Positions 57,148 to 62,614 of a stretch of DNA of 64,000 nt are shown here, piece by piece (position 1 is the stretch's first letter; each line of letters opens with the position of its first letter). Position numbers and translations under genes: made by a program. Below the pieces are notes generated by a model. That model had not been told where the DNA came from and did no database searches. It saw nothing but the letters and a program-made list of their open reading frames with translations. The stretch comes from Melioribacteraceae bacterium (GTDB taxonomy: Bacteria > Bacteroidota > Ignavibacteria > Ignavibacteriales > Melioribacteraceae), in contig JAIPBD010000020.1 of the NCBI GenBank assembly GCA_021739765.1, positions 1-64,000 of the forward strand, written 5' to 3'.

Positions 57148-59604
57148 TTATCCCAAATAATTAGAAATTCTTAAAATATCTACTAGTACTCCAAAGGCGG
57201 TGTTAATCGGTCCGGCTCCGGGTCCCTTTATTACAAGGGGTTTATCATTAAAGTTTTTTGTTGTGAAGGCGACTATATTATCGCTTCCTTCCAAATTGTA
57301 AAACGGATGTCTGCTGTCGATTTCCTGAATTCCAACTTCGGCTTTTCCTTTTTCAAATTTAGCGATGTAACAAAGTTTTTTATTTTCGGTAATCACTTCT
57401 TTAATTCTTTTGCTAAACTTCTCATCTTCCGATTCTAAAATTTCAAAATATTCATCAATCGATGCTGCTTTTTTTGCCTTAGCAGAAACGAGACTTTCAA
57501 CTTTTACATCTTTCATTTCGAATGGATATTTAGACTCTCTGATAAGAATCAAAAGTTTTCGGGCGACATCCAGTCCGCTTAAATCGTCTCTCGGGTCCGG
57601 CTCAGTAAAACCGGCTTTTTTGGCTTCTTTAACAATATCAGAAAATTTTGAATCAATTTTAATCGAATTAAAAATGTAACTCAAAGTTCCGGAAAAGACT
57701 CCTTCAATTTTGAAAATTTCATCCCCATTTTGAACAAGATCTTTTAATGTGTTAATGATTGGAAGAGCCGCTCCGACGTTTGTCCCGTATCGAAATTGAA
57801 CTTGGTGTTTTTTTGATGTTTGGGAAAGATCGTAAAAGTCTTTATATCGGCTGGAATTAGCAATTTTGTTTGGAGTTACAATAGAGATACTCGATTCAAG
57901 AATATTTTTGTAAAAGGGAATAAATATTCGCGAAGCTGTTGAATCAATAAAGATTGAATTGGGTAGATTCAAAGCTTTCATTTTTTGGATGAACAGTTGC
58001 GTGTCAGATAAGTTTTCGGAATTCTCAAGCTGATCTTTCCATGTTGAAATTTCAAATCCATCACTATCCAAAAACATTTTACTGCTGTTTATGACACCTA
58101 CCAATTTTAATTCCGCATGAGCTTCTCTCGAAATAAACTCTTTTCTATCTTCTATTAAATTTAAAAGTTCCCTTCCAACCATCCCCGGCCCGGCAATAAA
58201 CAGATTGATAACTTTCTTTTTCGCAAGGAAGATTGAATCATGCAGCACGTTTAGGGCTTTTGGTAAACATGCTTTATCGATAACGAGGGAAATATTCAGT
58301 TCGGATGATCCTTGTGCAATTGCGTGTAAATTAATTCCATTTTTTCCAAGAGCTTGGAATACCATCCCCGAAATTCCCGGAGTCTGTTTCATATCTTCAC
58401 CAACAACAGCAATTATCGAGAGGTTATCTTCAACTACAACTTTGCTGATGTTCCCGCTTTTTATTTCAGTTCCAAATTCTGTTTCGATAGCTTCCTTCGC
58501 TACGCTGCCTACGGAAGGATGCACAGCAAAACAGATGCTGTGCTCTGAGGACGCTTGAGAAATTAGAATAATATTTATATTTTTCTCGGCAAGCGATTTA
58601 AATAATTTTGCAGCTACACCTGTAACACCAATCATTCCGCTGCCCTGAACTCTCACCAACGAAACATTGTCAATGGATGAAATACCTTTAATATTGAACG
58701 GAACTGATTTTTCTCGTTCAACAATTACAGTTCCGGGAAAAGAAGGATTGAATGTATTTTTAATTCTGATTTTTATTTTCTTTTTTAGTGCCGGCTGCAT
58801 TGTCGGGGGATAAATTACTTTAGCACCAAAGTGTGATAACTCCATTGCCTCTTCGTAAGTAACTGCTTTGAGGGAAAATGAATTTTTTACTTTCCTGGGA
58901 TCGGCAGTTAAGATGCCGTCAACGTCAGTCCAAATTTGAATTTCGCTTGCATTTAGAGCGGCACCAAATATTGAAGCGGTATAATCTGACCCCCCCCGAC
59001 CCAGAGTTGTGATTACACCATCCTTTGTCGACCCTATAAATCCGGTAATAATTTGAGTACGATTATGTTTTTTAAAATAATCTGAAATGTTTTTGTTAGT
59101 TAAAGTGTAATTGACAGAAGCGTTTCCAAAATTATCATCGGTTTTTACAAGTTCACTTGCTTGTAAATATTCTGTTTTGATTCCACGATTCTGCATCGTA
59201 CTTGTAATTATTGTGCAGGAAAGTCTTTCACCAAATGATTGAATAAAATCAAGTGTGCGTGGAGTTAATTCCCTAAGAAGAAATACTCCATGATAAATTT
59301 CTCCCAATGATAAAAATAAATCATCAACTTCTTTTAGAAGTTCTTTCGAATCGGGTTTACCATTTAGATCGGTAATAATGTCGTAATGCAGCTTTATGAG
59401 TGTTTCAAGCTCATCCCTATATCGGATTTCCTTATTCAAAGCTAAATTGCTAATTTCTATCAATTTATCCGTTACAGTTTGAAATGCTGAAAAAATAATC
59501 GCAATTTTTTCTTTTTTATTCAATTCTTGTTGAATAATCATAACAACGCTATTAATTCTTTCAGCATTTCCAACGCTGGAGCCGCCAAATTTTAGTACTT
59601 TCAT
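57148..59604 (-). CDS. thrA: Bifunctional aspartokinase / homoserine dehydrogenase I
   Basis: The first and third steps of the threonine/methionine branch are fused in one 818-residue chain. Order: kinase domain with VLKFGGSSVGNAERI and TTLGRGGSDYTASIFG (1-290), two ACT domains (about 310-460) that bind the feedback amino acid, and homoserine dehydrogenase (470-818) with LFIAGPGMVGRELL, a GTNVGAALPIINTLK loop and FTEPDPRDDLSGLDVARKLLIL. It sits between metX and asd. Feedback by threonine is typical for this fusion class. Confidence 0.97.
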   Translation of the reverse strand: MKVLKFGGSSVGNAERINSVVMIIQQELNKKEKIAIIFSAFQTVTDKLIEISNLALNKEIRYRDELETLIKLHYDIITDLNGKPDSKELLKEVDDLFLSLGEIYHGVFLLRELTPRTLDFIQSFGERLSCTIITSTMQNRGIKTEYLQASELVKTDDNFGNASVNYTLTNKNISDYFKKHNRTQIITGFIGSTKDGVITTLGRGGSDYTASIFGAALNASEIQIWTDVDGILTADPRKVKNSFSLKAVTYEEAMELSHFGAKVIYPPTMQPALKKKIKIRIKNTFNPSFPGTVIVEREKSVPFNIKGISSIDNVSLVRVQGSGMIGVTGVAAKLFKSLAEKNINIILISQASSEHSICFAVHPSVGSVAKEAIETEFGTEIKSGNISKVVVEDNLSIIAVVGEDMKQTPGISGMVFQALGKNGINLHAIAQGSSELNISLVIDKACLPKALNVLHDSIFLAKKKVINLFIAGPGMVGRELLNLIEDRKEFISREAHAELKLVGVINSSKMFLDSDGFEISTWKDQLENSENLSDTQLFIQKMKALNLPNSIFIDSTASRIFIPFYKNILESSISIVTPNKIANSSRYKDFYDLSQTSKKHQVQFRYGTNVGAALPIINTLKDLVQNGDEIFKIEGVFSGTLSYIFNSIKIDSKFSDIVKEAKKAGFTEPDPRDDLSGLDVARKLLILIRESKYPFEMKDVKVESLVSAKAKKAASIDEYFEILESEDEKFSKRIKEVITENKKLCYIAKFEKGKAEVGIQEIDSRHPFYNLEGSDNIVAFTTKNFNDKPLVIKGPGAGPINTAFGVLVDILRISNYLG

Positions 59605-59641: not shown

Positions 59642-60799
59642 TTAATTTATAAAATCATAAATCATTGCTGTTAATTGATCAAACTCAATCAAGAATGCAT
59701 CGTGTCCGTGAATCGATTCGATCTCTTTATAAATTGAGTCAGGTATCATATTAAGAAATTCCTTTTGCTCTGATGGAGGATAGAGGATGTCGGTTGAGAT
59801 ACCGATTCCCAATGTTGGAATTTTTATTGATCCTAGGACTCCTTCAAGTTCACCCCTTCCCCGGGTGATATCATGTGTGTCAAGAGTATTTGTGATTGAG
59901 ATATAACTATTAGCGTCGAATCTATTTACTAATTTCTGACCTTGATAATCCAAATAACTTTCAATATCATATTTACTACGTTTAAGAAATTCATCATAAA
60001 ATTTTGAAATATTTCTTCCAAATCGTTCTCCAAAAGAGGGAAAACTCCTATAACTGATCATCGCTAATCTTCTGGCAACTGCAAGCCCGTTTTCAGGTTG
60101 AGAAGAATACCTCCCTTTATTCCATATCGGATCAGCTTTTATGGCTTCCCGTCCTGTGTGATTGAACGAGATTGCCCATGGTGAATGTTTAACCGCTGTG
60201 GCAATGGGGATAATTGATTGAATAATTTCCGGATACATTATGGCCCATTCTAACACTTGCATTCCACCGAGTGAACCACCTGCCGCTGTAACTATTTTTT
60301 TTATTCCGAGTTTATCGATTAAAACCTTTTGTAATTCAACCATATCCCTAACCGTAACATGCGGGAAATCAGAGGCATACGAATCTTGTGAATCATTCTT
60401 AAAAGAAGTCGGCCCGGTTGTACCATAACAACTTCCTAAAATATTGGTGCAGACTACAAAGTACTTTTCGGTATCAAAAACTTTTCCGGGTCCGATTAGA
60501 GGATCCCACCAACCGGGAGAATTTGAAAACATTTTGGAGTAAGATTTCAAAAGATCAAATTTGGAATATGGATCAGACTCCTCCTTTTCAAGTACTCCCG
60601 CAGCATGTGCGTTTCCGGAGAGCGCATGGCAAATCAGAATGACGTTCGTTCCATCCGAATTGAGCTCGCCATAACTTTGGTAAGCGATATTGACATTACG
60701 AAGTTCTTCACCATTCTCTAGCTTGAATGATCGGAGATCGTAATTAATCTTAACGATCTCCGTTTTTGCCATCAATTTGTTTTCTGATTTATTAAGCAT
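59642..60799 (-). CDS. metX: Homoserine O-acetyltransferase
   Basis: An alpha/beta-hydrolase acyltransferase that acetylates homoserine at the start of methionine synthesis. The nucleophile serine is in AAGGSLGGMQVLEW near residue 155; LICHALSGNAHAAG and FVVCTNILGSCYGTTGP are family motifs. The catalytic Asp and His are in GISTDILYPP and IHGHDAFLIE. Some members use succinyl-CoA; the sequence alone does not settle it. It follows metY after 48 bases. Confidence 0.94.
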   Translation of the reverse strand: MLNKSENKLMAKTEIVKINYDLRSFKLENGEELRNVNIAYQSYGELNSDGTNVILICHALSGNAHAAGVLEKEESDPYSKFDLLKSYSKMFSNSPGWWDPLIGPGKVFDTEKYFVVCTNILGSCYGTTGPTSFKNDSQDSYASDFPHVTVRDMVELQKVLIDKLGIKKIVTAAGGSLGGMQVLEWAIMYPEIIQSIIPIATAVKHSPWAISFNHTGREAIKADPIWNKGRYSSQPENGLAVARRLAMISYRSFPSFGERFGRNISKFYDEFLKRSKYDIESYLDYQGQKLVNRFDANSYISITNTLDTHDITRGRGELEGVLGSIKIPTLGIGISTDILYPPSEQKEFLNMIPDSIYKEIESIHGHDAFLIEFDQLTAMIYDFIN

Positions 60800-60847: not shown

Positions 60848-62173
<1,326 letters not shown>

Positions 62174-62188
62174 TTATTGTAACGAATA

Positions 62189-62226
62189 ATAAAAAAGCCT
62201 CTCAGGAAAGAATCCTGAAGAGGCTT
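62189..62226 (-). terminator. Expression-platform terminator of the SAM-I riboswitch
   Basis: On the minus strand aagcctcttcagga pairs with tcctgagaggctt, followed by TTTTTT. It lies between the SAM-I aptamer and metY (start 62158) and is the expected off-state structure. Confidence 0.88.
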
Positions 62227-62236
62227 GTAAAATCAT

Positions 62237-62360
62237 TCGCTCTTCCCTCATCTTTCCCAAATAATTAATATTTTTTGGGCAGGATTTAGCACCTTCCACT
62301 TAGTGGTGGTTGCTAAGGTTTCAACGGGCCTGTTCCCTCAACCTTTCTTAATAAGAGTAA
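62237..62360 (-). promoter_or_regulatory. SAM-I (S box) riboswitch aptamer
   Basis: Minus-strand RNA reads ctcttattaagaaaggttga, then gggaacaggcccgttgaaac, then cttagcaaccaccactaagt and ggaaggtgctaaatcctgcc, ending in a gggaaagatgag segment. These are the S-box landmarks: AAG-AGGTTGAGGGA, GGCCCGATGAAACC with one change (GTTG for GATG), GCAACC, GGTGCTAAATCC. It binds S-adenosylmethionine and turns off the met genes. End coordinates are approximate. Confidence 0.92.
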
Positions 62361-62382
62361 ATATTTATAAGAACATAAAACT

Positions 62383-62404
62383 TAGCCCTTCTGAAGAAGG
62401 GCTA
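62383..62404 (-). terminator. Hairpin after the Cys-rich leader, possible attenuator
   Basis: tagccctt (62383-62390) pairs with aagggcta (62397-62404) around a six-base loop. On the minus strand agtttt follows, a weak T-run. The loop and arm sequence ttctga (62389-62394) is complementary to tcagaa (62421-62426), directly after the leader stop codon, so an alternative fold competes with it. Confidence 0.6.
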
Positions 62405-62426
62405 TTAAAAATTTATCTTATCAGAA

Positions 62427-62522
62427 TTAGTTGCAACCCGGACAACAACACAAGCAATTGTTACACATGCACATGAAGTGAACTGATTTGAAAGCCGCTA
62501 TATTCTGATAAATAGTTTTCAT
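62427..62522 (-). CDS. 31-codon cysteine-rich leader peptide upstream of the met operon
   Basis: On the minus strand the ATG at 62522 opens MKTIYQNIAAFKSVHF, followed by MCMCNNCLCCCPGCN and a TAA stop. Seven of the last 14 residues are cysteine, three of them consecutive (TGT TGT TGT). Cys-rich upstream frames that make ribosomes stall when cysteinyl-tRNA is scarce are known in actinobacterial sulfur operons. Here the frame is followed by a hairpin with a competing fold, then by a SAM-I riboswitch and metY. A weak AGGTG lies 11 bases before the ATG. The alternative is a small metal-binding peptide. Confidence 0.65.
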   Translation of the reverse strand: MKTIYQNIAAFKSVHFMCMCNNCLCCCPGCN

Positions 62523-62570
62523 AATAATTGCACCTAACTTAGTCTTGGAATAATTTGTTGTCAAGCACAT

Positions 62571-62599
62571 TTTATAAGCTGATTGTAAAAAGTTGTCAC
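62571..62599 (-). promoter_or_regulatory. Predicted promoter of the met/thr operon leader
   Basis: On the minus strand GTGACA (-35, 62594-62599) and TATAAA (-10, 62571-62576) are separated by 17 bases. Transcription would start near 62564, about 40 bases before the Cys-rich leader ATG. Confidence 0.5.
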
Positions 62600-62614
62600 T
62601 TTTGAATAATAATC

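Follow-up and report, generated by a model that had tools for sequence, protein, structure and literature searches.

A cysteine-rich leader frame in front of a SAM-I riboswitch: a candidate two-stage attenuator of a sulfhydrylase operon in Melioribacteraceae

Architecture of the metY leader

The window (the whole stretch of 64,000 nucleotides analysed here, from contig JAIPBD010000020.1 of a Melioribacteraceae bacterium) carries a SAM-I riboswitch in front of metY, and a short frame rich in cysteine codons in front of that riboswitch. Is this frame a leader peptide that controls transcription in series with the riboswitch and, if so, which amino acid does it sense? All features of the locus described below lie on the minus strand.

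The leader frame, MKTIYQNIAAFKSVHFMCMCNNCLCCCPGCN, has 31 codons (62522..62427, with the ATG at 62522 and the stop codon at 62429-62427) and was identified from the sequence, the list of open reading frames and the position-conserved frames of relatives. Seven of its codons specify Cys (codons 18, 20, 23, 25–27 and 30, including a run of three), and two internal codons specify Met. It is followed by a hairpin, TAGCCCTTC-TTCA-GAAGGGCTA (62404..62383), and then by AGTTTTATG; both folding and a terminator consensus scan indicate this structure. The SAM-I aptamer comes next (RF00162; 62357..62245; 88.0 bits, E = 1.5e-19, cut-off 44.4). An expression platform is present between aptamer and metY in the form of a U-tailed hairpin, recognised by eye at about 62226-62191, with a core stem from the consensus scan at 62219-62201 and a T-run. 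No Rfam riboswitch other than SAM-I exceeds its cut-off in the leader region; the other candidate sensor is the frame.

The gene controlled by this leader would be metY, encoding an O-acetylhomoserine/O-acetylserine sulfhydrylase (62158..60848; TIGR01326, 694.6 bits, cut-off 495.1; also PF01053), whose best relatives carry the labels Ignavibacteriae, Chlorobiota or Bacteroidetes. Downstream lie a metX-like homoserine O-acetyltransferase gene (60799..59642; NF001209, 424.9 bits, cut-off 331; TIGR01392, 445.6 bits, under the cut-off of 500) and a frame at 59604..57148 that we take to encode a fused aspartokinase/homoserine dehydrogenase, possibly in the same operon as metY. The next gene upstream of the leader is divergent (a plus-strand frame from about 62925, presumably ilvD-like), which makes a separate promoter for the leader probable. 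Both the 31-codon frame with three consecutive Cys codons and the order of hairpin, aptamer, terminator and metY agree with what the original prediction had read from the sequence.

Conservation of the leader across the order

To be informative, conservation of so short a frame has to be compared with chance. RF00162 was located 78 times across 165 genomes of the order Ignavibacteriales, and all 77 sites that score above the cut-off were examined (the other scores 27 bits). Using limits that were chosen after the first examples were known, we searched for ATG frames with at least three Cys in eight residues that end 60–115 nt upstream of the aptamer. Such a frame is present at 26 of the 77 sites, whereas dinucleotide shuffles give 0.16 on average (maximum 1) and the antisense strand gives 0/77. 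Elsewhere in the phylum it was found at 1 of 70 sites among the matches listed (shuffles: mean 0.45, maximum 3); this sample consists of 30 loci returned and 40 fetched from the list of best matches.

A second definition was based on the hairpin, as CCCTT(2-24)AAGGG within 130 nt of the aptamer. This hairpin occurs together with a Cys/Met-rich ATG frame at 34 of the 77 sites, in 31 genomes and 20 genera, so that the frame and its hairpin are kept in relatives, as the original prediction had asked. We refer to the combination as the module, and to module sites of the order as tandem sites. Where several frames fitted at one site, the frame densest in Cys and Met was chosen, and shuffles were handled likewise. 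At 33 of the 34 module leaders the combined density was matched by no more than 5 of 100 shuffles; L051, with two Cys and no internal Met, fails this test. The same search returned 33/76 for the test stretch, 0/76, 0/74 and 0/71 for neighbouring control stretches, and 1/76 for antisense. Because the conservation is position-specific, chance is excluded.

In 33 of the 34 leaders, which belong to three families, residue 7 is Asn, with variable residues on either side (window 62504-62502). This speaks for a shared ancestry of the leaders and for the start codons chosen. When the peptide itself was searched against 98 genomes, including that of the window, 35 matched at E <= 10 and only the window was convincing, the best other match having an E value of 0.0067. 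Conservation of the leader is therefore visible by position, not by peptide similarity. Across the window's own genome, a Cys-codon pattern with a wider gap found the window leader as its sole place. A class-wide pattern scan matched 62 of 392 genomes, mostly at unrelated inverted repeats, and pointed to five further leaders within the set of sites already collected. The window-type order, leader then SAM-I, was also found in a contig labelled Balneolales (L078) and in genome G390 (L245).

We also observed a dispersed inverted repeat, CCCTTCTCTTA...AAGAGAAGGG then GTCCCTCTCTT...AAGAGAGGGA, in several copies per genome (G123, G611, G754, G603, G710 and others).

Coding signals were assessed in 17 aligned leaders. 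All 8 gaps inside the frame have a length divisible by three, compared to 4/53 after the frame, although these counts are not independent because the aligned sequences are related. Variable columns of the frame in these leaders show no enrichment at third positions (24, 23 and 22), and this codon-position pattern does not help the case for coding.

Position of the promoter candidate

The promoter candidate of the window consists of TTGAC (62564-62560) and TAAGTTAG (62541-62534), read from the sequence. It is located at -207 from the aptamer and is one mismatch off the pattern we applied, which we take to be the Bacteroidota-type consensus. The pattern proper has no match at the candidate, and its sole window match within 330 nt lies at -326. 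Likewise, a sigma-70 scan gave no site at the candidate, and 4 in the region compared to 3.0 in shuffles. A promoter candidate can be read before the frame, as proposed originally, but it is one base off the pattern and is not listed by the sigma-70 scan. From this candidate, transcription would start roughly 6–10 nt 5' of the leader ATG.

Among the 34 tandem sites, 25 have a pattern match 199–269 nt upstream of the aptamer and none has one within 150 nt, whereas 36 of 43 plain SAM-I sites (without the module) have a match within 100 nt. At eight module sites no match to the promoter pattern was found within 330 nt. A GTTCTT motif was noticed by eye shortly 5' of several aptamers (62374-62369 in the window), in tandem and plain sites alike.

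Terminator hairpin and competing pairings

The leader hairpin of the window has a 9-pair stem (-14.5 kcal/mol) and is listed as terminator-like by the terminator consensus scan, which gave 2 such sites in the region compared to a mean of 0.6 in shuffles. Its U-run (AGTTTTATG) is weak and begins later than in most relatives, where it stands directly behind the stem (not in L183). An intrinsic terminator after the leader frame is thus recognised by the scan in the window, with a weak U-run.

It had been proposed that TCAGAA just after the stop codon competes for TTCTGA inside the hairpin. Both hexamers exist, but their places are swapped: the one after the stop codon is TTCTGA (62426-62421), and the one in the hairpin is TCAGAA (62394-62389). 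A competing pairing is indeed conserved in most relatives, but its partners are the last part of the frame and the terminator's 5' arm, and the post-stop TTCTGA is not used. In the window, the candidate antiterminator strand A (GGGTTG, 62439..62434, within codons 28–30) pairs with strand B (TAGCCC, 62404-62399, in the 5' arm of the hairpin).

Pairing of A with B reached p <= 0.05 at 23 of 27 sites in a first test (26 sites of the order plus L245) and at 31 of 34 when a uniform stretch was used in a second test; the exceptions in the latter were the window, L041 and L044. The window pairing comprises 6 pairs, two of them G-U, with p = 0.040 for one choice of shuffled stretch and 0.126 for the other. 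L053, the most similar of 17 other aligned leaders (50% identical), has GGGCTG where the window has GGGTTG, a change that keeps the pair as G-U. For 17 aligned leaders of one family, the strands are GGAAGG and CCTTCC, and 97% of cells are paired. Since A:B hardly varies, covariation is uninformative on it. The covariation analysis suggested originally was run and the yield was thin: one double-change pair in the terminator, a level reached by 262 of 500 shuffles, and none in A:B.

We folded the window leader with a ribosome mask, assuming 12 nt beyond the A-site. With stalls at Cys 18, 20 and 23, A:B is the best structure available until the 3' arm has been transcribed. With the ribosome at the stop codon, or stalled at codons 25–27 or 30, A is covered and A:B is not the best structure. 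According to the same folding, the post-stop strand ATTCTGATAA (62427..62418, containing TTCTGA) is also able to pair with TTATCAGAAT inside the leader frame (62511-62502), as a 10-pair duplex of -11.2 kcal/mol.

Two pairings were considered as conserved alternatives and set aside. TTCTGA:TCAGAA is absent from L053 and was rejected as a conserved competing pair, and the stem of TTATCAGAAT with ATTCTGATAA was not found in L053 either. TTCTGA:TCAGAA could matter for later stalls, though L053 is without it.

Genes behind the tandems

A MetY match was found downstream of 29 of the 34 tandems. In one of these, L214, a Cys-rich leader and SAM-I precede a ThiS-like gene and then a MetY-like gene (38% identity), a pair that we take to recall carrier-dependent homocysteine synthesis. 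Four tandems (L044, L182, L201 and L215) stand before cysH-type reductase operons of sulfate assimilation. Three of these four operons have a DUF2061-type gene before, and all four have cysD-like frames after; the families were searched for L044, and the other three loci were assigned by similarity of translated frames. All four cysH-type leaders contain more Cys than Met. L141 ends too early to assign a downstream gene. The window's own genome has a single PF01507 match, which we presume to be cysD-like. No Cys/Met-rich short frame was found in the 900 bases before it, with the operon start lying beyond that stretch.

Cysteine or methionine as the probable control residue

The original prediction was that the leader senses cysteinyl-tRNA. 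Cys does dominate in the window copy, but leaders of the family carry Met too. Met density exceeds shuffles at 31 of the 34 leaders and Cys density at 28. Five leaders (L198, L052, L184, L185 and L060) have at most one Cys alongside three to five Met, and L198 has no Cys at all.

A further comparison comes from metY genes that have no SAM-I riboswitch. In a TIGR01326 search of 77 genomes of the window's family, 43 genomes gave a match above cut-off. No SAM-I was found for 14 of these, and 12 were examined: G116 was excluded because its metY begins at the contig end, and G048 may have an aptamer because its 252 bases upstream seem to hold the 3' part of one. Ten of the 12 genes have two leader-plus-hairpin units in a row (L289, L293, L312, L314 and L319–L324), and two have one (L303, L307). 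All 22 leaders contain more Met than Cys, the frames having been picked by Cys+Met density with no shuffle control of composition. A:B pairing reached p <= 0.05 in 21 of the 22. The Cys share of Cys plus Met is 0.15 in leaders without SAM-I, compared to 0.48 in nine metY leaders with SAM-I from the same family (Mann-Whitney p = 0.0025, relatedness ignored). This pattern would fit a division of labor: where SAM-I watches the Met/SAM branch, the leader would be free to watch Cys, and where SAM-I is missing, the leaders would watch Met. A genome of the window's family was found with the same leader as Stygiobacter electus (Ignavibacteriales); the leader of S. electus is single and Met-rich (L077).

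Proposed mechanism and alternative explanations

We propose that the window leader is a ribosome-mediated transcription attenuator in series with a SAM-I riboswitch, and we give this reading a probability of about 0.75. For the family as a whole, we consider the same two-stage reading more probable than for the window. In the first stage, RNA polymerase would start just upstream of the leader frame. If charged tRNA-Cys were low (in the family, Cys and Met), the ribosome would stall on the control codons, A would pair with B, the terminator would be blocked and transcription would continue. Under good supply, the ribosome would reach the stop codon and cover A, and the hairpin would terminate transcription. 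In the second stage, the SAM-I riboswitch with its own terminator would pass low-SAM transcripts only. With the two stages in series, metY, and probably metX too, would be fully transcribed only if both signal sulfur shortage. For the window leader we infer translation, stalling, termination, SAM binding and the AND logic from sequence. Sequence anatomy, conservation and position favor the idea of two devices in series, as does the competing pairing of most relatives; its restriction to low SAM plus Cys appears too narrow for the family, whose leaders probably read Met too.

An overlapping reading is that the leader senses sulfur amino acids generally, Met-tRNA as much as Cys-tRNA. The five Met-rich leaders, the Met density beyond shuffles at 31/34 leaders and the excess of Met in 22/22 leaders of SAM-I-less metY genes all point this way, but the window, with 7 Cys against 2 internal Met, and the four cysH-type leaders do not, and we regard general sensing as a tentative, if quite possible, account. 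It is unlikely that the leader stage is decaying in the lineage of the window, with the hairpin passed constitutively and SAM-I alone working. The weak U-run and weak A:B of the window would be expected of such decay, and L054, of the same genus as L053, may hold a decayed leader: the 330 nt before its aptamer have kept a distant promoter match with an altered hairpin, no CCCTT and no Cys-rich frame. However, the Cys run of the window is intact, the 9-pair stem is stable at -14.5 kcal/mol, and the difference between GGGTTG and the GGGCTG of L053 retains the pair as G-U.

Ribosomes on the frame might, without any hairpin switching, protect the RNA from Rho or from decay, as suggested for mycobacterial Cys leaders; Rho has been suggested for terminator-less actinobacterial cys leaders (PMC1262725, in the text available of it). 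In the order, however, the frame goes together with a hairpin, which has a U-tail in most copies, and with a complementary strand; protection from Rho or decay is an improbable explanation here. That the frame encodes a functional Cys-rich micro-protein (a metal, redox or modified peptide) is very improbable: its seven Cys and the Asn7 of 33/34 leaders could be taken to indicate one, but searches of Pfam and NCBIfam gave no match for the window frame, relatives have Met in place of Cys, and the position is fixed before the hairpin, SAM-I and sulfur genes.

Relation to known systems

The SAM-I riboswitch (S box, RF00162) of the window has the standard aptamer and terminator before metY, and differs in that a leader-peptide stage would precede the aptamer within one transcript. 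Attenuators of the trp, his and thr type consist of a short frame with control codons, an alternative strand near the stop codon and an intrinsic terminator. Each of these elements has a candidate counterpart in the window, which differs by its Cys/Met control codons, its three-strand scheme and the serial riboswitch. Tandem riboswitches that act as logic gates also place two RNA sensors serially on one transcript, but there both sensors are aptamers, whereas the window would combine one aptamer with one translated frame and does not belong to that class. To our knowledge, leader peptides with methionine as the control residue are hardly described.

Cysteine leader peptides have been proposed in actinobacteria, with Cys runs near the stop codon and upstream of sulfur genes, in the portions consulted of two papers (PMC1262725, PMC4633059); conserved terminator hairpins are missing there, as far as the excerpt of the former goes (PMC1262725), and the portions consulted name no riboswitch alongside these leaders. 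The window shares the Cys run near the stop but has a conserved hairpin and a riboswitch, and is not a member of this group as these excerpts define it. The uORFC-8-2 motif upstream of cysS in Rhodobacterales, for which ribosome-mediated attenuation has been proposed, has two conserved Cys codons and a U-tailed terminator (PMC8632094, excerpt). As described there, it is a single stage, before another gene and in another phylum than the window tandem. The SAM-II leader of metA in S. meliloti, which has two start codons as well as a terminator (PMC9373788, excerpt), likewise combines such elements with a SAM riboswitch on a Met gene. It differs in its riboswitch class, the excerpt mentions no Cys/Met control codons, and it is nearer to the reversed order described below. 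Closer to the window's phylum, excerpts report probable leader-peptide attenuation upstream of amino-acid operons for a flavobacterium (PMC9723704) and leader-like small frames for Bacteroides thetaiotaomicron (PMC7366714).

No description of a leader peptide in series with SAM-I was found in the literature searched, whose coverage is partial (few subscription journals). The earlier statement that no such tandem is described therefore stands for that literature, but the combination itself is common in these genomes, occurs also before cysH-type operons and has a counterpart in reversed order. We judge the leader-peptide attenuator serial with a riboswitch to be what is probably new here, each device of the kind being already known alone.

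Reversed order in other Bacteroidota

We built a covariance model from 24 aptamers and applied it to 80 metY loci from across public genomes, 48 of which were found to contain SAM-I. Cys frames were present at 29 metY loci. SAM-I lies before the frame in 23 of these, after it in one (L078) and is missing in five. A Cys-rich frame starts at most 60 nt 3' of the aptamer at 26 of the 48 SAM-I loci, compared to a mean of 0.2 (maximum 2) in mononucleotide shuffles, and the distance from the aptamer end to the ATG is mostly 6–10 nt. No frame directly behind the aptamer was found at the 77 sites of the order or at the 70 other sites. Hosts of the reversed order include Hymenobacter, Pedobacter, Pontibacter, Raineya and Thermonema. 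Loci of this kind before metY were noted at L073, L085, L088, L126, L131–L136 and others.

Three arrangements are thus seen: leader then SAM-I (also before cysH-type operons), leader then leader without SAM-I, and SAM-I then leader. We put it at even odds that, in Ignavibacteria and other bacteria of the Bacteroidota group, Cys/Met leaders and SAM-I are exchangeable serial parts of a modular sulfur control. If so, an aptamer and a translated frame would be interchangeable detectors for one pathway, and in the order SAM-I then leader, SAM would gate translation of the cysteine sensor. The window-type tandem would be a natural two-input gate, in which one sensor reads tRNA charging and the other a metabolite, both for the same sulfur genes, and would join the demands of protein synthesis and methylation. 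As related genomes swap one module for the other, both the exchange and the logic are directly testable.

The pairing of the sequences that flank the aptamer in the reversed order was investigated at 34 loci (25 with Cys-rich and 9 with Cys-poor frames; L128 and three Cys-poor loci were omitted). Flank pairing is stronger with a locus's own partner (mean -2.8) than with the partners of other loci (-1.6), a clear but modest difference, and it goes beyond -3 kcal/mol in 15/34 own pairings compared to 28% of foreign ones. Stronger pairing with the own partner is absent in the 77 sites of the order and the 70 other sites. At the 34 loci, the closing helix could continue up to a median of 1 nt short of the ATG and, in the reversed order, may thus reach the start codon, although the control with foreign partners tempers this.
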